Position numbers and translations under genes: made by a program. Shown piece after piece: positions 40,920 through 49,499 of a stretch of 64,000 bases of DNA. This DNA is from Baekduia alba (GTDB lineage Bacteria > Actinomycetota > Thermoleophilia > Solirubrobacterales > Solirubrobacteraceae), in contig NZ_CP114013.1 in the NCBI RefSeq assembly GCF_028416635.1, positions 1,674,001 through 1,738,000 of the forward strand. The letters are read 5' to 3'. The notes under the pieces were generated by a model. It worked only from the letters and a program-made list of their open reading frames with translations, did no database searches and had not been told where the DNA came from. Position 1 is the first letter of the stretch. Each line of letters begins with the position of its first letter.

Positions 40920-41591
40920 CTAGTCCTCGTCGTTGAGGTGCGTCGTGTCGTTGAAGCTGCGCAGCAGCCAGCGGCCGTCGCCGAAGACCACGAGGCGCGA
41001 GATCGACGTGTTCTCGGCGTGGATGAACGCCAGCGGCGGCGCGCCGGTCGCCTGCCGGGCCAGCTCGCCGATCACGCCGCCGTGGACCACGGCGGCGGCG
41101 ACGCGGCCGGGGCCGGTGCCGTCGACGACCTTGTTGATGCCCTTGCGCACGCGCTCCGCGAACGCCTCGGCCGGCTCCGCCCCGGGGATGACGTCCCAGC
41201 GCTGCTCCTCGAAGATCGTGCGCACCAGCGGGTCGCCCTTCGCGGTCCGGACGCGCAGCTCGCCGCCTTCCCACTCGCCAAGGCGCACCTCTGAGAGCTC
41301 CGGGACGACGGTCGGCGCCAAGGTGGTGGCCTCGATCAGCGGCCGCGCGGTCTGGGCGGTGCGCTGCAGCGAGGTGACGAACAACGTGTCCGGAGGACGC
41401 CTGGCCAGGCGGGCGCCGACGAGCCGCGCCTGCTGCTCGCCGATCGGCGACAGCGCGGGGTTCGCGTGGCCTTCGAGGAGCTCGAACGGCTCGCCGGGAA
41501 CGGCGTCCTGGGAGGCGCCGTGGCGCACCAGGAGCACCTCGGTGGCGTCGTCGGGAAGGGTCCAGGCCCGCTGCGGGTAGCGCTCGCTCAC
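40920..41591 (-). CDS. Histidine phosphatase (phosphoglycerate mutase-like) family protein
   Basis: A 223-aa protein with LLVRHGASQD (phospho-His motif), the FVTSLQRTAQTARPLIEA segment, SEVRLGEWEGGELR and the late AVVHGGVIGELARQ His motif. All catalytic residues are present, so a phosphatase or mutase activity is expected; the substrate is unknown. The GTG at 41591 is the likely start. It is convergent with the dehydrogenase and divergent from the B12 riboswitch, from which it is 70 bp away; not obviously part of the B12 operon. Confidence 0.85.
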   Translation of the reverse strand: MSERYPQRAWTLPDDATEVLLVRHGASQDAVPGEPFELLEGHANPALSPIGEQQARLVGARLARRPPDTLFVTSLQRTAQTARPLIEATTLAPTVVPELSEVRLGEWEGGELRVRTAKGDPLVRTIFEEQRWDVIPGAEPAEAFAERVRKGINKVVDGTGPGRVAAAVVHGGVIGELARQATGAPPLAFIHAENTSISRLVVFGDGRWLLRSFNDTTHLNDED

Positions 41592-41661
41592 CGACGGGAC
41601 CTTGCCAGAAGGTCGGATTGCAGGGCTGCGACGCGGCGTGTACTGTCCGGCGCGTTCAAGC

Positions 41662-41766
41662 GATGGTGCGGGAAGTCGGTGAGAGTCCGACGCGGTCGCG
41701 CCACTGTGACCGGAGGTCTTCCGAGGAAGGCACTCCGGCAAGCCAGGAACTTGACCCGGCCATCGC
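41662..41766 (+). ncRNA. Cobalamin (B12) riboswitch aptamer
   Basis: It carries the class hallmarks: GCGGGAAGTCGGTGAGAGTCC followed by GACGCGGTCGCGCCACTGTGACCGG (41669-41713 region), then AGCCAGGAAC (the B12-box end, near 41741-41750). A seven-pair P1 closes it perfectly: GCGATGG (41662-41668) with CCATCGC (41760-41766). It precedes the B12 operon on the same strand and should lower its expression when adenosylcobalamin is abundant. Confidence 0.93.
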
Positions 41767-41781
41767 ATACAACCCCTTACG

Positions 41782-41806
41782 TCGGGACGCGCTTATCCCG
41801 AGGAGG
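41782..41806 (+). promoter_or_regulatory. Riboswitch expression platform: hairpin abutting a strong ribosome site
   Basis: TCGGGA (41782-41787) pairs with TCCCGA (41796-41801) around the loop CGCGCTTA. The 3' arm runs directly into AGGAGG (41801-41806). Such a hairpin loop commonly kisses loop 5 of the aptamer and blocks translation when ligand is bound, so control by ribosome access is likely. Confidence 0.65.
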
Positions 41807-41815
41807 TTCGTTTCG

Positions 41816-41857
41816 TTGGTCGACCCTGAAGCACCCCGTTCGCGCCTCGTGGCGTGA
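41816..41857 (+). CDS. 13-codon leader ORF coupled to the phosphatase gene
   Basis: A TTG at 41816 lies nine bases after AGGAGG and opens a frame MVDPEAPRSRLVA that stops at 41855-41857, sharing GTGA with the GTG of the downstream phosphatase gene at 41854. The downstream gene has no ribosome site of its own. So the riboswitch may act by controlling this leader, with the main gene translated by re-initiation. The peptide is Arg/Pro-containing with no known family. The arrangement is seen in the sequence; the mechanism is inferred. Confidence 0.55.
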   Translation: MVDPEAPRSRLVA

Positions 41858-42480
41858 GCCTCCGGGTCCTCTTCATCTGCCACGCGGCGACGGCTGACAC
41901 ACGCCGTGCCGTGTTCGGCGGCGACGGTCCGCTGCTCGACGGCGCGTCGCGGCGTGTCGCCGACCTGGCGGCGCACCTCCCGCGGGCGCGCTCGGTCCTA
42001 CGCAGCGGTGCGACCTGCTGCGCCGAGACGGCGGACGCGCTGGGCCTCGGCGAGGTCGCGGTCGTGTCGAGCGCCGTGGGTGACTGGGACTTCGGGGCCT
42101 GGCGCGGCCGGCCGCTGGCGGAGGTGGAGGTCGCGGACCCCGACGGCGTCGTCGCCTGGCGCGCCGACCCGGCACGGGCGCCACACGGCGGCGAGACGCT
42201 TGTTGATGTTCTTGGTCGGGTCCGCGCGTGGCTCGACGGGCTGGAGGGCGAGGGCACCCGCACGGTCGTCACGCACGCCTCGGTGATCCGCGCCGCGGTG
42301 GTCTGCGGCCTGGAGGTGCCCGAGGAGGCGTTCTGGACGATCGACGTCGCGCCCACGTCGGTGACCGAGCTGCGCCGCCGCGGCACTCGCTGGCGCGTGG
42401 CCCGGATCAACTGGGAGCCGGCGCTGTTCCGCGACCCGCGCCCGACGGCGCGGCGGACGCCGGTGGAGGCGACGCGATGA
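41854..42480 (+). CDS. Cobalamin-cluster histidine phosphatase (CobC-like alpha-ribazole phosphatase)
   Basis: A 208-aa histidine-phosphatase fold protein. The N-terminal motif is FICHAATADT (His10), where most family members have RHG; the second histidine is in VVTHASVIRAAV, and the GDWDFGAWRGRPL stretch fits the family. First full gene of the B12 operon, and placed beside cobS, so dephosphorylation of alpha-ribazole 5'-phosphate or adenosylcobalamin phosphate is the likely task. Variants with CHA in place of RHG occur in actinobacterial B12 clusters (from memory). GTG start at 41854, coupled to the leader ORF; ends overlapping cobS by 4 nt. Confidence 0.8.
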   Translation: MSLRVLFICHAATADTRRAVFGGDGPLLDGASRRVADLAAHLPRARSVLRSGATCCAETADALGLGEVAVVSSAVGDWDFGAWRGRPLAEVEVADPDGVVAWRADPARAPHGGETLVDVLGRVRAWLDGLEGEGTRTVVTHASVIRAAVVCGLEVPEEAFWTIDVAPTSVTELRRRGTRWRVARINWEPALFRDPRPTARRTPVEATR

Positions 42481-43250
42481 GCGAGACCACGACCGCCGCA
42501 GTCGCGCCCGCCGTCGCGCCCTTCGCCGGCGCGCGGCTCGCGATCGCGTTCCTCACCATCGTCCCCACCGGCCGCGTCGAGGGTCTCGGCGCGGCCTGGC
42601 TCTCCCGCGCGGCGCCGTGGTTCCCGGTCGTCGGCGCGCTCGTCGGCGGCGTCGCCGCCGGCGCCTGCGCGCTCGCCGACGCCGCCGGCGTCTCGCCGGC
42701 GGTCGCCGGCGCGCTCGCGATCGTCGCGGCCATCGTCTTCACCCGAGGCCTGCACGAGGACGGCCTCGCGGACACCGCCGACGGCCTCGGCGTCCACGGC
42801 ACTCGCGAGCGGCGGCTCGCGGCCATGAAGGACTCGGCCGTCGGCGCGCACGGCGCGCTGGCGATGGCGTGCGCGCTGCTCGTCGCGGCCCTCGCGCTCG
42901 CCGCGCTCGACGCCGCACACGCCGCCCGTGCCCTGGTCGCCGCGCACGTCGCGTCGCGCGCCGCGATGGTCGTCGCCGCCGCGGCGCTGCCCAACGCCCG
43001 CGCCGGCGCCGGCCTCGGCCGCAGCCTCGCCGTCGCGCCGCGGGCCGCGGTCGTCGCGACGGCGCTGGCCGCCGCGACCTTCGTCGTCGCCGGCGCTCCC
43101 GCGGCGCTCGGCGCCGCCGCGGTCGCGCTGCTCGCCGCCCTCGCCGTCCAGGTCCGCGCCTTCGGCGGTCGCACCGGCGACACGCTCGGCGCGACCGGCA
43201 AGGTGGTCGAGGTCGCGGTCCTCGTCGCCCTCTCCGGAGCGTGGTCGTGA
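42477..43250 (+). CDS. cobS: Adenosylcobinamide-GDP ribazoletransferase (cobalamin synthase)
   Basis: A 257-aa membrane enzyme that joins adenosylcobinamide-GDP with alpha-ribazole (phosphate). It has the signature LHEDGLADTADGLG near residue 90-104, an early RLAIAFLTIVPTGR, about six membrane segments and the terminal GRTGDTLGATGKVVEVAVLV. ATG at 42477 overlaps the phosphatase stop; stop overlaps the cobQ GTG. Ala-rich, as is common in high-GC genomes. Confidence 0.95.
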   Translation: MSETTTAAVAPAVAPFAGARLAIAFLTIVPTGRVEGLGAAWLSRAAPWFPVVGALVGGVAAGACALADAAGVSPAVAGALAIVAAIVFTRGLHEDGLADTADGLGVHGTRERRLAAMKDSAVGAHGALAMACALLVAALALAALDAAHAARALVAAHVASRAAMVVAAAALPNARAGAGLGRSLAVAPRAAVVATALAAATFVVAGAPAALGAAAVALLAALAVQVRAFGGRTGDTLGATGKVVEVAVLVALSGAWS

Positions 43251-44803
43251 CCGGCGGCGCGCTCCTGGTCTGTGGCACGGCGTCGGACGCCGGCAAGTCG
43301 CTCGTGACCGCCGGCATCTGCCGGTCGCTGGCCCGGCGCGGCGTCCGCGTCGCGCCGTTCAAGGCCCAGAACATGGCCAACAACTCGGCCGTGACCGCCT
43401 CCGGCGCGGAGATCGGGCGCGCCCAGGCGATGCAGGCGGCCGCCTGCGGGATCGAGCCCGAGGCCGCGATGAACCCCGTGTTGATCAAGCCGGCGGGGGA
43501 GACGTCGTCGCAGGTCCTGCTCATGGGCAAGCCCTACGCCGACGCGACCGCGCGCTCCTACCAGGAGCTGAAGGCGTCGCTCGAGGCGCCGGTCCTCGCG
43601 GCGCTCGACGGGCTGCGCGCGCGCTTCGACGCCGTCATCTGCGAGGGCGCCGGCTCGCCCGCCGAGATCAACCTGCGCGCACGCGACCTCGCCAACATGG
43701 GCCTGGCGCGGGCGGCCGACATCCCCGTCCTGCTCGTGGGCGACATCGACCGCGGCGGCGTCTTCGCCTCGCTCGTCGGGACGCTCGCGGTGCTGGACGC
43801 CGAGGACCAGCGCCACGTCGCCGGGTTCCTGATCAACAAGTTCCGCGGCGACGCGAGCGTGCTCGCGCCCGGCCTGGAGATGTTGTCCGGGTTGACCGGC
43901 CGGCCGACGCTCGGCGTCCTGCCGTGGCGCGAGGGCCTGTGGCTGGACGCGGAGGACTCGCTCGCGCTCGAGGCGCCCGCCCTGGCTCCCGCGCCGCCGA
44001 TCGGCGCCGACACGCTCGACGTCGTCGTCGTGCGCCTGCGCTGGATGTCGAACTTCACCGACGTCGACGCGCTCGCGGCCGAGCCGGGCGTCGGCGTGCG
44101 CTACTCGCGCTCGCCGGTCGACGTCGAGCGCGCCGACCTCGTCGTCGTCCCGGGCACGAAGGCGACGGTCGCCGACCTGGAGCGCCTGCGCCGCGACGGC
44201 CTCGACGTCGCGCTGGCGCGCCGCGCCGCGGCGGGCGCGCCGATCCTCGGCATCTGCGGCGGCTACCAGCTGCTGGGGCACCGCATCGAGGACGACGTCG
44301 AGTCGCGCTCCGGCGTTGTCAATGGCCTTGGGTTGCTCCCGGTCGACACCGTGTTCGACCCCACCAAGCTGCTGCGCCGCCAGGCTGGAGTCGCGGCCCC
44401 GACCTGGCTCGGCGGCGCAGCCGTCTCCGGCTACGAGATCCGCCACGGCCAGCCGCGCCCGCACGCCGGGGGCGCGGCGCCCGGCGAGTCCCTGCTCACC
44501 ACCGCCGCCGGCGCGCCCGAGGGCTGGGCCCATGGGGCCGTGCTGGGGACGAGCTGGCACGGCCTGCTCGAGGGCGACGCGGTCCGCCGCGCGCTGCTGG
44601 CCTGGGTCGCCGGCGAGCGCGGCCGCTCCTGGCTGCCCGGCGACACGCCGTTCGCGGCCGTCCGCGAGCGCCGCCTCGACGTCCTCGGCGACCTCGTCGA
44701 CGAGCACGTCGACCGCGACGCGCTCGACGCCCTGCTCGCCGGCGGCGTCGTCGACGGCCTTCCGTCCCTCGACCTCCAGAGGACCGCATGCTCCGCGTCC
44801 TGA
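43247..44803 (+). CDS. cobQ: Cobyric acid synthase (amidates b, d, e, g side chains)
   Basis: A 518-aa glutamine amidotransferase. The N-terminal DTB-synthetase-like ATPase has VCGTASDAGKSLVTAGICR (P-loop) and FKAQNMANNSAVT; the middle has LVGDIDRGGVFASL; the C-terminal GATase has GICGGYQLLGH with the catalytic Cys and a later SWHGLLEGDAVR with His. The GTG start at 43247 shares GTGA with cobS. It converts adenosylcobyrinic acid a,c-diamide to adenosylcobyric acid. Overlaps cobN by 16 nt. Confidence 0.96.
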   Translation: MTGGALLVCGTASDAGKSLVTAGICRSLARRGVRVAPFKAQNMANNSAVTASGAEIGRAQAMQAAACGIEPEAAMNPVLIKPAGETSSQVLLMGKPYADATARSYQELKASLEAPVLAALDGLRARFDAVICEGAGSPAEINLRARDLANMGLARAADIPVLLVGDIDRGGVFASLVGTLAVLDAEDQRHVAGFLINKFRGDASVLAPGLEMLSGLTGRPTLGVLPWREGLWLDAEDSLALEAPALAPAPPIGADTLDVVVVRLRWMSNFTDVDALAAEPGVGVRYSRSPVDVERADLVVVPGTKATVADLERLRRDGLDVALARRAAAGAPILGICGGYQLLGHRIEDDVESRSGVVNGLGLLPVDTVFDPTKLLRRQAGVAAPTWLGGAAVSGYEIRHGQPRPHAGGAAPGESLLTTAAGAPEGWAHGAVLGTSWHGLLEGDAVRRALLAWVAGERGRSWLPGDTPFAAVRERRLDVLGDLVDEHVDRDALDALLAGGVVDGLPSLDLQRTACSAS

Positions 44804-47800
44804 GCCACGCCGACACCGACCTCCTGGCCGTCACGCGCGCGCTGGGCGACCTGCCGGCCGGCTTCCCGGAGGTGCGCGTCGCCAACCCCTCCTCCTTGAC
44901 CGACCTGGACGACATCCTGGACGGCGCCCGCGTCGTCGTCGTCCGGCTGCTCGGCGGGCGCAGGGCGTGGGAAGACGGCGTCACGGAGCTGCGCCGGCGC
45001 GCCACCGGCGAGGGCGACAGGGGCTTCGCGCTCATCCTGCTCGGCGGCGAGCCGCAGCCCGACGCCGAGCTGGCGCAGCTGAGCCACGCGCCCGCCGGCG
45101 CGCTCGCGCAGGCCTTCGAGTACCTGCGCCACGGCGGCGTGGGCAACGCCACCAACCTGCTCCGCTTCCTCGCCGACACGTTCCTGCTCGAAGGCCACGG
45201 CTTCGAGGATCCGGTGGCGCGGGCGTCGCACGGCGGCTACCAGCCCGCCGGCCTCGACGTCGGCGGCGAGGACGGCGCTCCGCGCATCGCCATCGTCTTC
45301 TACCGCTCGCACCTCGCGGCCGGCAACACCGCGTTCGTCGACGCGCTGGCCCGCGCGGTCGCCGACGCCGGCGGCGTCCCGACCTGCGTCTGGGCCCAGT
45401 CCTTGCGCCCGGACGTCGATGAGCGCGTCGCGCTGCTGGAGGAGCTGCAAGGCAACGTGGATGCCTTGATCGTCACGGTGCTGGCCTCCGGCGGGTCGAC
45501 GGCGGCCGACGAGGGCGCCGACGGCTGGCAGGCCGACGCGCTGGCCGCGCTCGGCGTCCCGGTGATCCAGGCGGTCTGCGTGACGCGCTCGCGCGCCGCA
45601 TGGGCCGAGAGCCCGGCCGGCCTGAGCCCGATGGACGTCGCGATGCAGGTCGCGATCCCGGAGTTCGACGGCCGGCTTCTCGGTGGCGTCGTCTCGTTCA
45701 AGGAGCCCCACCCGGACTTCGCCGGCGTCTCGGCCTACGTCCCGGATGCCGAGCGCTGCGCGGCCGTCGCCGGCCTGACCGTCCGGACCGCGCGCCTGCG
45801 CTCGCTGGCCGCCGAGCGACGCAAGGTGGTCGTGATGCTCTCCGCGTTCCCGACCAAGCACGCGCGCATCGGCAACGCGGTCGGGCTCGACACGCCCGCG
45901 TCGGCGATCGCGTTGTTGGAGGCCATGCGCGCGGCCGGCTACCGGGTCGACGCCATCGCGGCCGACGGCGACGCGCTCATCCACGGGCTGATCGCGGCCG
46001 GCGGCTACGACCCCGACCACCTGACCGACGCGCAGCTCGCCGCCGCCGTCGCGCGGCTGCCGGTCGCGCAGTACGAGGAGTGGTTCGCGGCGCTGCCGGA
46101 GGATCTCAAGTCCTCCATGATCGACACGTGGGGCCCGCCGCCCGGCACGCAGTGGCGCGACGGCGACGACCTCGTCCTCGCCGGCCTGGACCTCGGCGGC
46201 GTCTTCGTCGCGATCCAGCCGCCGCGCGGCTACGGCGAGGGGGTGGGTGGGTCCGATTCGATCTACCACGACCCCGAGCTCGCGCCCTCACACCACTACC
46301 TCGCGTGCTACTGGTGGCTGGACCGGGTGTGGGGCGCCGACGCGCTCGTGCACCTCGGCAAGCACGGCACGCTGGAATGGCTGCCGGGCAAGTCGGTGGG
46401 GTTGAGCGCGGCGTGCGGGCCGGACGCCGCGCTGGGCACGCTCCCGGTCGTCTACCCGTTCGTGGTCAACGACCCCGGCGAGGGCGTCCAGGCCAAGCGG
46501 CGGATGCACGCGACGATCGTCGACCACCTGATCCCGCCGATGGCGCGGGCCGGGACGCACGACGAGCTCGCCGCGCTCGAAGACCACCTGGACGAGTACG
46601 CGCGGATGGAGGCCCTCGACCCGTCCAAGCTCCCGGCGCTCGGCGCGCGGATCTGGGAGGCGCTGCTCGCCGCCAACCTGCACAAGGACCTTGGGTTGGA
46701 CGACGCGGACGCGCCGGCCGACGAGGACGCGATCGGCACGGTGATCGAGCACCTCGACACCTACCTGTGCGAGGTCAAGGACCTCCAGGTGCGCGACGGG
46801 CTGCATGTGCTGGGCCTTGCGCCGGAGGGCGAGGCGCTGCGCAACCTCGTCGCCGCGATCATGCGCCTGCCCAACGCGGACGTGCCGGCGCTGCGGCGCG
46901 CGATCGGGACGGCGCGCGGCGTCGACGAGCTGGCGCTGATCGAGGCGGGCGACCGCGTCGCGCTGGATCGCCTGGACGCCGCGCAGGACATGGTGCTGGA
47001 CGCGCTGTCGGCGCGCGGGTGGGACGTGGACGCGCTGGCCGAGGTCGCGCGCAACGTGCTCGACACCGACGCGCCGGACGTCCTGCACGCGCTGCGCTTC
47101 GCCGCGGCCGACCTCGTGCCGCGCCTGCGCGCGTCGACCCGCGAGATCGACGCGGTGCTCGCGGCGCTGGACGGCGAGTACGTGCCGGCCGGGCCGAGCG
47201 GCTCCCCGACGCGCGGCCGCGTCGACGTCCTGCCCACCGGCCGCAACTTCTACGGCGTCGACCCGAAGGCGCTGCCCTCGCAGCTGTCCTGGGACGTCGG
47301 CGTCCGGCTCGGCGACGCGCTCCTGCAGCGCCACGTCGCGGAGGACGGCCGCCATCCCGAGACCGTGGGGATCGTCGCCTGGGGCACGGCCGCCATGCGC
47401 ACGCACGGCGACGACGTCGCCGAGATCCTGCACCTGCTGGGCGTGCGGCCGGTGTGGAACCCGGACACGCGGCGGGTCACCGGGGTCGAGGTGGTGTCCT
47501 TGGAGGAGCTCGGGCGCCCGCGGATCGACGTGGTGGTGCGGATCTCCGGCTTCTTCCGCGACGCGTTCCCGCACCTGGTGTCCTTGATCGACGACGCCGT
47601 CAGCACCGTCGCGGCGCTGGACGAGGGCGACGACGACAACTACGTGCGCAAGCACACGCGCGGCGACGCCGCGCGCCTGGCGGACGAGCTCGGCGAGAGG
47701 GGCGCGTGGCGGCGCTCGACCGCGCGCGTCTTCGGGTCGCGTCCGGGGTCCTACGGCGCCGGGCTGTTGGAGCTGATCGACGCGCGCAACTGGCGCGACG

Positions 47801-48456
47801 ACGCCGACCTGGCCGCCGTCTACGAGGCGTGGGGCGGCTACGCCTACGGCGCCGGGCTGGACGGCGTGGAGGCGCGCGGCGCCGTTCGCGACTGCTTCGC
47901 GCGGATCGAGGTCGCGGTCAAGAACATCGACAACCGCGAGCACGACCTGTTCGACAGCGACGGGTACTTCCAGTACCACGGCGGCATGGTCGCGGCGGTG
48001 CGCGCGCTGAGCGGCCGGGACCCGAAGGCGTGGGTCGGCGACAGCGCGGACCCGGCGCGCGTCCGGGCGCTGTCGCTGGCCGAGGAGGCGCGGCGCGTCT
48101 TCCGGGCGCGCGTGACGAACCCGCGCTGGATCGGCGCCATGGTACGGCACGGCTACAAGGGCGCGTTCGAGCTCGCGGCGACCGTCGACTACCTGTTCGG
48201 CTACGACGCGACGACGGGCGTCGTCGACGACTGGATGTACGAGGCGATCGCGGACAAGTACGTGCGCGATCCCGACGTCGGCGCGTTCCTGAAGCGGTCG
48301 AACCCGTGGGCGCTGCACGCGATGGCCGAGCGGCTGCTGGAGGCCGCCGAGCGCGGGCTGTGGGCGGCGCCGGAGCCGGGGACGCTGGAGGCGCTCCAGG
48401 AGCAGCTATTGGATGTTGAAGCACAACTCGAGGAAGCGGGAGAGCCGGCGCCATGA
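44788..48456 (+). CDS. cobN: Cobaltochelatase subunit CobN
   Basis: The large subunit (1222 aa, typical size) of the ATP-dependent chelatase that inserts cobalt into hydrogenobyrinic acid a,c-diamide in late-insertion B12 synthesis. Signatures include VVMLSAFPTKHARIGNAVGLDTPAS, HLGKHGTLEWLPGKSVGLS, PFVVNDPGEGVQAKRR and GSRPGSYGAGLLELID, all typical of CobN/ChlH. The ATG at 44788 follows AGAGGA by four bases and lies inside the end of cobQ. The downstream ChlID-like protein is its ATPase partner. Confidence 0.96.
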   Translation: MLRVLSHADTDLLAVTRALGDLPAGFPEVRVANPSSLTDLDDILDGARVVVVRLLGGRRAWEDGVTELRRRATGEGDRGFALILLGGEPQPDAELAQLSHAPAGALAQAFEYLRHGGVGNATNLLRFLADTFLLEGHGFEDPVARASHGGYQPAGLDVGGEDGAPRIAIVFYRSHLAAGNTAFVDALARAVADAGGVPTCVWAQSLRPDVDERVALLEELQGNVDALIVTVLASGGSTAADEGADGWQADALAALGVPVIQAVCVTRSRAAWAESPAGLSPMDVAMQVAIPEFDGRLLGGVVSFKEPHPDFAGVSAYVPDAERCAAVAGLTVRTARLRSLAAERRKVVVMLSAFPTKHARIGNAVGLDTPASAIALLEAMRAAGYRVDAIAADGDALIHGLIAAGGYDPDHLTDAQLAAAVARLPVAQYEEWFAALPEDLKSSMIDTWGPPPGTQWRDGDDLVLAGLDLGGVFVAIQPPRGYGEGVGGSDSIYHDPELAPSHHYLACYWWLDRVWGADALVHLGKHGTLEWLPGKSVGLSAACGPDAALGTLPVVYPFVVNDPGEGVQAKRRMHATIVDHLIPPMARAGTHDELAALEDHLDEYARMEALDPSKLPALGARIWEALLAANLHKDLGLDDADAPADEDAIGTVIEHLDTYLCEVKDLQVRDGLHVLGLAPEGEALRNLVAAIMRLPNADVPALRRAIGTARGVDELALIEAGDRVALDRLDAAQDMVLDALSARGWDVDALAEVARNVLDTDAPDVLHALRFAAADLVPRLRASTREIDAVLAALDGEYVPAGPSGSPTRGRVDVLPTGRNFYGVDPKALPSQLSWDVGVRLGDALLQRHVAEDGRHPETVGIVAWGTAAMRTHGDDVAEILHLLGVRPVWNPDTRRVTGVEVVSLEELGRPRIDVVVRISGFFRDAFPHLVSLIDDAVSTVAALDEGDDDNYVRKHTRGDAARLADELGERGAWRRSTARVFGSRPGSYGAGLLELIDARNWRDDADLAAVYEAWGGYAYGAGLDGVEARGAVRDCFARIEVAVKNIDNREHDLFDSDGYFQYHGGMVAAVRALSGRDPKAWVGDSADPARVRALSLAEEARRVFRARVTNPRWIGAMVRHGYKGAFELAATVDYLFGYDATTGVVDDWMYEAIADKYVRDPDVGAFLKRSNPWALHAMAERLLEAAERGLWAAPEPGTLEALQEQLLDVEAQLEEAGEPAP

Positions 48457-49499
48457 GCAAGACGATGGGGTTGGTTCCGGCGATCCGGCCCGTGGACGAG
48501 GCGGCGCGCGAGGCCGCGCTGGCGCGCCAGGCGCAGCTGCTCAAGCCGCCTGGGTCGCTGGGACGGCTGGAGGAGGTCGCGGTCTGGGTCGCGGGCGTGA
48601 CCGGCCGGGAGCGTCCGGTGCCGCGGACGCGGGTCGTGATCGCGGCCGCCGACCACGGCGTCGTCGCCGAGGGCGTCTCGGCGTTCCCGCAGGAGGTGAC
48701 CGGGCAGATGCTCGGCGCGTTCGGCGCGGGGTTCGCGGCGATCACGGTCCTGGCGGCCCATGCCGGCGCGGACGTGGTGCTGGTCGACGCGGGCGTGATC
48801 GACCCGCCGGAGGGCGTCGCCGGCGTCGACGTCGCCCTGCCCGCGCCGTCGCGCAACCTCGCGGTCGAGCCGGCGCTGGCCGACGACGAGGTCCGCAGCG
48901 CGGTGCGCGCCGGCCGCGCGATCGCGGCGCGGGCGGCGGCCGACGGGATCGACCTGGTGATCGCGGGCGAGATGGGCATCGGGAACACGACGCCGGCCGC
49001 GTGCCTGACCGCGGCGCTGTGCGGGCTGCCGGCCGACGCGGTCGTCGGCCGCGGGACCGGGGTGGACGACGAGGGCCTGCGGCGCAAGCGCGCGGTGATC
49101 GAGCGCGCGCTGGACCGGCACGTGGACGCGGCGGACGGCGATCCGCTGGAGCTGCTGCGCCGCCTCGGCGGCGGCGAGCTGGCGGTGCTGTGCGGCCTGG
49201 CGCTCGGCGCGGGCGAGCACGGGCTGGGCCTGATCTGCGACGGCGTCATCGCGACGGCCGCGATCGCGGTGGCCACGGAGCTGGCGCCGGAGCTGGGCGG
49301 CCGGCTGCTGGCCGGCCACCGCTCGGTCGAGCCGGCCCACGAGCACCTGTTGTCGCGGTTGGGCCTGCGCCCGCTCGTCGAGCTGGACCTGCGGCTGGGG
49401 GAGGGCTCCGGCGCGGCGACGGCGCTGCTGCTGGTCCAGGCCGCGTGCGCGCTGCACGACGGGATGGCGACGTTCGCCGAGGCGGGGGTGAGCGGATGA
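48453..49499 (+). CDS. cobT: Nicotinate-nucleotide--dimethylbenzimidazole phosphoribosyltransferase
   Basis: A 348-aa enzyme that activates the lower-ligand base to alpha-ribazole 5'-phosphate. It has KPPGSLGRLEEVA, AAADHGVVAEGVSAFPQEVTGQM, GEMGIGNTTPAACL and GRGTGVDDEGLRRKRAVIERAL, plus the catalytic-Glu region LRLGEGSGAATALLLVQAA. All family motifs are in place. ATG at 48453 overlaps the cobN stop by 4 nt. Product feeds CobS and the phosphatase at 41854. Confidence 0.96.
   Translation: MSKTMGLVPAIRPVDEAAREAALARQAQLLKPPGSLGRLEEVAVWVAGVTGRERPVPRTRVVIAAADHGVVAEGVSAFPQEVTGQMLGAFGAGFAAITVLAAHAGADVVLVDAGVIDPPEGVAGVDVALPAPSRNLAVEPALADDEVRSAVRAGRAIAARAAADGIDLVIAGEMGIGNTTPAACLTAALCGLPADAVVGRGTGVDDEGLRRKRAVIERALDRHVDAADGDPLELLRRLGGGELAVLCGLALGAGEHGLGLICDGVIATAAIAVATELAPELGGRLLAGHRSVEPAHEHLLSRLGLRPLVELDLRLGEGSGAATALLLVQAACALHDGMATFAEAGVSG

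Follow-up and report, generated by a model that had tools for sequence, protein, structure and literature searches.

A cobalamin riboswitch of Baekduia alba predicted to control its cobC operon through a short relay reading frame

The cobalamin riboswitch in front of the cobC operon of Baekduia alba very probably acts as a translational OFF switch on a 13-codon leader (relay) reading frame, from which ribosomes would be handed to cobC by termination and re-initiation at a GTGA overlap. The region lies within the window, a stretch of 64,000 nucleotides of contig NZ_CP114013.1, to which positions refer unless another locus is named. According to this model, the Shine-Dalgarno sequence AGGAGG at 41801 would be free when adenosylcobalamin is scarce, and ribosomes would start at TTG 41816, read the 13 codons, thereby opening a hairpin in which the start of cobC is otherwise hidden, and terminate at the TGA ending at 41857. 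The terminating ribosomes would begin again at GTG 41854, an overlapping start codon without its own ribosome site, and the rest of the operon would follow. When the cofactor is plentiful, the L5 loop of the aptamer (41696-41700) would dock on the hairpin at 41782-41801, pairing with L13 at 41788-41791, and block the ribosome site, by which both the relay frame and cobC would be silenced.

The elements of this arrangement were established by sequence comparison. The aptamer matches the cobalamin family RF00174 at positions 41647-41778 of the forward strand (48.8 bits by cmscan; gathering threshold 31.5) in its compact form, without the long peripheral extension, and scores 111.1 bits with R1, a lineage model rebuilt from 19 aligned loci. 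Among these loci, the core helices are supported by covariation, with two-sided changes in 11 of 29 consensus pairs. By family score and core covariation, the element is a cobalamin riboswitch, and it would be expected to bind cobalamin. The core (41660-41766, +) is enclosed by a closing stem of GCGATGG (41660-41666) and CCATCGC (41760-41766), which is present in the minimum free energy fold and shows seven Watson-Crick pairs on direct reading. The initial annotation had rightly described this stem as perfect, and its coordinates agree with ours throughout, except that it placed the start of the riboswitch at 41662, two nucleotides after the stem begins. A second histidine phosphatase gene (40923-41591, reverse strand) lies divergently and directly upstream of the riboswitch. 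Elsewhere in the same genome (G000), a strong B12 riboswitch (100.7 bits; G000:C1:2311421-2311588, L001) precedes a gene for a secreted-looking protein of 389 amino acids (MTYKYLGLLTGGLMLVSGALAGPAMA...).

The expression platform is a P13-like hairpin at 41782-41801 (+), TCGGGA-CGCGCTTA-TCCCGA, with a 6-bp stem and an 8-nt loop (41788-41795) containing CGCG. It begins fifteen bases 3' of the closing stem and, as noticed before, abuts the AGGAGG (41801-41806, +), the A at 41801 being both the 3' end of the hairpin and the first base of the Shine-Dalgarno sequence. The motif GGGACGC..TCCC does not vary among the 19 aligned loci, and the longer string GGGACGC(nnn)TCCCGAGGAGG is nearly invariant across the lineage loci; because its pairs are invariant, the P13 stem shows no covariation. 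The L5 loop, UCGCG at 41696-41700 (+) in alignment A1, is complementary to 41788-41791 and represents one half of the proposed kissing loop. In the same alignment, the putative L5-L13 pairing comprises 4 bp in the window (CGCG/CGCG), 5 bp in the congener G006 and 3 bp in many relatives. Neither an intrinsic terminator nor a sigma-70-type promoter was found between 41560 and 42000. The fold of the whole region (41655-41870) reached a z-score of only -1.8 and was therefore left out of the evidence.

Nine nucleotides downstream of AGGAGG, which forms a duplex of -12.2 kcal/mol with the 16S tail, TTG 41816 opens the leader frame (41816-41857, +; peptide LVDPEAPRSRLVA), and comparable relay frames occur in 21 other loci. 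Its stop codon TGA (41855-41857) overlaps the GTG (41854-41856) of the gene for a CobC-like histidine phosphatase, forming the junction GTGA (41854-41857, +), and the 18 nt preceding this GTG revealed no anti-Shine-Dalgarno pairing. The start, spacing, length and overlap of the leader frame, as well as the lack of a ribosome site before the phosphatase gene, had been proposed in the initial annotation and are borne out by direct reading and by the search for pairing. The phosphatase gene (41854-42480; Pfam His_Phos_1, 3.6e-25), whose best NCBIfam match is TIGR03162 (ribazole_cobC) at a score below its cut-off, is the first full gene of the operon, which continues on the forward strand with cobS (42477-43250; Pfam CobS, 9.2e-45), cobQ for cobyric acid synthase (43241-44803; NF001989, 588.6 bits), cobN for a cobaltochelatase subunit (44788-48456; TIGR02257, 1164 bits) and cobT for the DMB phosphoribosyltransferase (48453-49499; TIGR03160, 372.6 bits). 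From cobS to cobT, neighbouring genes overlap by 4-16 bases. The cobS gene overlaps cobC by ATGA and has its own Shine-Dalgarno sequence, a GGAGG upstream of its start; therefore, the missing ribosome site is a peculiarity of cobC. The genome contains another cobC-like gene (G000:C1:3644039-3644602, L064), which has no riboswitch nearby; its GTG overlaps the stop codon TGA of the regulator-like gene upstream of it, again as GTGA, so that the coupling habit is kept.

Instead, the phosphatase might really begin with the leader, either through programmed frameshifting between the two frames or because a sequencing error conceals their continuity, and a minor uPPE2-PPE2 frameshift fusion has been detected in Mycobacterium tuberculosis (PMC11260477). 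However, homology to phosphatases sets in exactly at 41854, the phosphatases of leaderless relatives begin at the equivalent residue, and the arrangement of frames is common to three related genomes, which leaves this explanation scarcely credible.

Support for a relay comes from comparison across Solirubrobacterales, an order of soil bacteria in which an R1-type switch is present in 155 of 232 genomes and the open reading frame following the switch was read in 76 distinct loci. In about 40 of these the next gene is cbtB, which is served directly by the ribosome site. A leader frame of 6-36 codons precedes cobC in 22 loci, belonging to 11 genera and 3 families, and the exact NTGA overlap with cobC is kept in every one of them (21 GTGA, one ATGA); a conserved GTGA-type junction, which the initial annotation had suggested looking for among relatives, is thus present. 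At the seven distinct leaderless loci, which were examined in detail, cobC begins right after the ribosome site of the riboswitch. The cobC start codon is GTG in 21/22 leader loci and ATG in 7/7 leaderless loci (Fisher exact test on the 2x2 table, p about 5e-6). In the leader loci, duplex energies are -9.3 or stronger for the Shine-Dalgarno sequence of the leader and -5.7 or weaker for that of cobC, whereas cobC has values of -6.3 to -11.4 in the leaderless loci. Start codon and Shine-Dalgarno strength of cobC shift together with the presence of the leader, and this, along with the 22 overlapping junctions, is consistent with the earlier proposal that the ligand acts on the leader frame and that the operon is reached by re-initiation. 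If the loci were independent, the probability of finding every one of the 22 leaders open and in the frame that gives the overlap would be about 6e-13, a value that is too optimistic because the loci are related; with one locus per genus and the frame alone, it is (1/3)^11, or about 6e-6.

On the cobC tree, whose root is arbitrary, the leader state requires six changes, at least three of them forced by well-supported branches; the protein row of Gaiellaceae, which came from a wrong reading frame and sat on a very long branch, was disregarded. The order of genes is riboswitch-cbtB-cbtA-cobC in G005, from the same genus as the window. Within g12, a Solirubrobacter-like genus, a leader is present in one species, and translation starts directly at cobC in others. 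Therefore, leader, cbtBA and direct layouts interchange. The idea that the leader is a relic of cbtB was rejected, as similarity between leader peptides and CbtB N-termini was not clearly above that of shuffles (p 0.05-0.9 per leader). In a riboswitch-cobC locus from Gaiellaceae (L252, 2739-2990), an 8-codon leader (MDVSRFFA) ends with TAG 20 nt before the GTG of cobC, and a 6-codon GTG frame (VGSATA) then reaches GTGA; the overlap is therefore not universal. Another locus (L194, G219:C64) has two micro-ORFs between a riboswitch, at about bases 120-245 of the locus, and a cobG-like gene: the stop of MRHNPSPRFP overlaps a GTGA and so does that of the following VSVRP, a chain that may be due to chance. 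No report of relays of this kind in Solirubrobacterales was found in the open-licence literature.

The peptides encoded by the leaders (e.g., LVDPEAPRSRLVA, MHPVIAA, MDGITP and MHRIAPSSPPDRRTAASVAAAPAP) have nothing in common across genera. The leader would therefore serve as a landing pad for ribosomes, and the peptide itself is probably non-functional. Between the window's genome and G006, the leader codons differ by one synonymous and three non-synonymous changes, and the first 60 codons of cobC by 17 and 7, respectively. Selection at the codon level was rejected for the leader, as there is no synonymous excess in the close trio formed by the window, G006 and G003, in which conservation follows an RNA hairpin; the codon-like substitution that the initial annotation had also thought of looking for is absent. 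Short motifs shared by close relatives (MQVHVTP, MVAQVA, MHR) might point to a functional or sensing peptide of conserved sequence that acts as an attenuator or by stalling. However, peptides that are unrelated across genera, range from 6 to 36 codons and lack a synonymous excess within the trio make such a role very unlikely, and neither a conserved sensing or stalling peptide nor a conserved codon content, as in leader-peptide attenuators, was found.

The hairpin spans the junction (41833-41867, +) and consists of a 9-bp stem (41838-41846/41851-41859) with a 4-nt loop and an outer 4-bp helix (41833-41836/41864-41867). Its z-score is -3.56 in the window and -3.20 and -3.02 in the two congeners. 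The GUG of cobC sits in the 3' arm, with a probability of being unpaired of about 0. Among the 35 junction bases, variation within the trio is confined to the 4-nt loop (TCGT, CGTT, GCCT), and compensatory changes are absent among the three sequences. The hairpin was rejected as a general feature, since the other 19 leader loci lack it and resemble shuffles; it is a trait of the window's sub-lineage, i.e., the window and its two congeners. A translating ribosome must open the junction stem, and the predicted hairpin would therefore tie cobC to translation of the leader and render it dependent on it.

Alternatively, the leader may be incidental, with ribosomes binding GTG 41854 directly without a Shine-Dalgarno sequence and the riboswitch acting through RNA structure or Rho-dependent termination. 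Initiation without a Shine-Dalgarno sequence is common in actinobacteria and would allow such a direct start, but a stable, conserved hairpin encloses the GTG, and the exact overlap is kept in all 22 leader loci, whereas in leaderless loci cobC has ATG and a Shine-Dalgarno sequence instead. In M. tuberculosis, translational switches for B12 and Mg are accompanied by Rho-dependent termination (PMC11260477, PMC12810186); however, the authors of the ppe2 study argue that the effect is not explained by Rho (PMC11260477). We consider an incidental leader unlikely and favor re-initiation from the relay frame.

A relay of this type has been demonstrated in M. tuberculosis, confirming that the coupling of B12 riboswitches to small reading frames in mycobacteria, which the initial annotation had mentioned, is real and experimental. 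At ppe2, a compact B12 switch uses a hairpin to mask the Shine-Dalgarno sequence of the upstream frame uPPE2, and PPE2, which has no Shine-Dalgarno sequence and an AUGA overlap with uPPE2, needs translation of that frame, mainly by termination-reinitiation (Kipkorir et al., 2024; PMC11260477). Abolishing the start or the Shine-Dalgarno sequence of the upstream frame severely diminished PPE2 expression, and moving its stop off the AUGA overlap lowered it (PMC11260477). The window shares with ppe2 a compact aptamer without the P8-P12 extension, a hairpin that adjoins the Shine-Dalgarno sequence of a short frame and not of the main gene, an NUGA stop/start overlap (GTGA 41854-41857) before a main gene without a Shine-Dalgarno sequence, and a cobalamin gene in the operon. 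It differs in that the next gene is cobC and not a PPE gene, in its 13-codon leader and the use of TTG and GTG, not AUG, as start codons, in the conserved junction hairpin burying the start, and in that the arrangement is kept across an order with unrelated peptides; dependence on the upstream frame was shown by experiment for ppe2 and is predicted for the window from sequence comparison. Direct RF00174 switches of the same order (riboswitch-cbtB, and riboswitch-cobC with ATG) share the aptamer and the GGGACGC..TCCCGAGGAGG platform, but have no leader frame, and translation of the enzyme or transporter gene starts directly from their ribosome site. In the Mbox-rv1805A-pe20 system of M. tuberculosis (PMC12810186), a riboswitch likewise directly controls a small upstream frame before an operon; however, it senses Mg and the frame encodes a highly conserved small protein, in contrast to the sequence-free relay of the window. 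Termination-reinitiation at overlapping genes (PMC6728339) resembles the window in its ATGA-type overlap and coupling, but concerns co-directed gene pairs in general, whereas the upstream frame of the window exists only as a riboswitch-gated entry.

The M. tuberculosis case was the only experimentally shown riboswitch-gated relay frame of this type found in the searchable literature, and taken by itself it might have reflected a quirk of the insertion of a PPE gene. The relay described here stands in a plain B12-synthesis operon, recurs at 22 loci with interchangeable peptides and comes with a matched switch of start codon and Shine-Dalgarno sequence; therefore, it looks like a recurrent design. 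The mechanism is known in principle from the one mycobacterial case, and new are the breadth of occurrence, the matched change of start codon and Shine-Dalgarno sequence, the junction hairpin and the apparent indifference to the peptide across genera. We lean, with some reserve, towards the wider view that Actinomycetota use peptide-independent relay frames as a general platform module of B12 riboswitches, which would have arisen repeatedly (cobC in Solirubrobacterales, cbiB in Streptomyces, ppe2 in mycobacteria) and would leave operons with a translationally coupled first gene under the control of the switch, some lineages being locked by a junction hairpin that buries the start. Annotation can assign such riboswitches to the wrong first reading frame. 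Conexibacter arvalis DSM 23288, a culturable type strain with a leader of 24 codons, and Streptomyces offer direct test systems for the relay.

R1 also matched genomes that are probably Streptomyces, the genus being inferred from family and protein content. A subset of these has another platform (CACCCTGAGTGAGGAC), followed by a frame of 18-26 codons that usually starts with M-x-G/A-C and ends in a TGA about 3-5 nt upstream of a cbiB (cobD)-like start. Judging from sequence, this family of B12 riboswitch, leader frame and cbiB looks like a second, independent relay; it was seen in 17 distinct loci (L306, L310, L311, L315, L317, L326, L336, L341-L343, L347, L349-L351, L353, L354 and L356).
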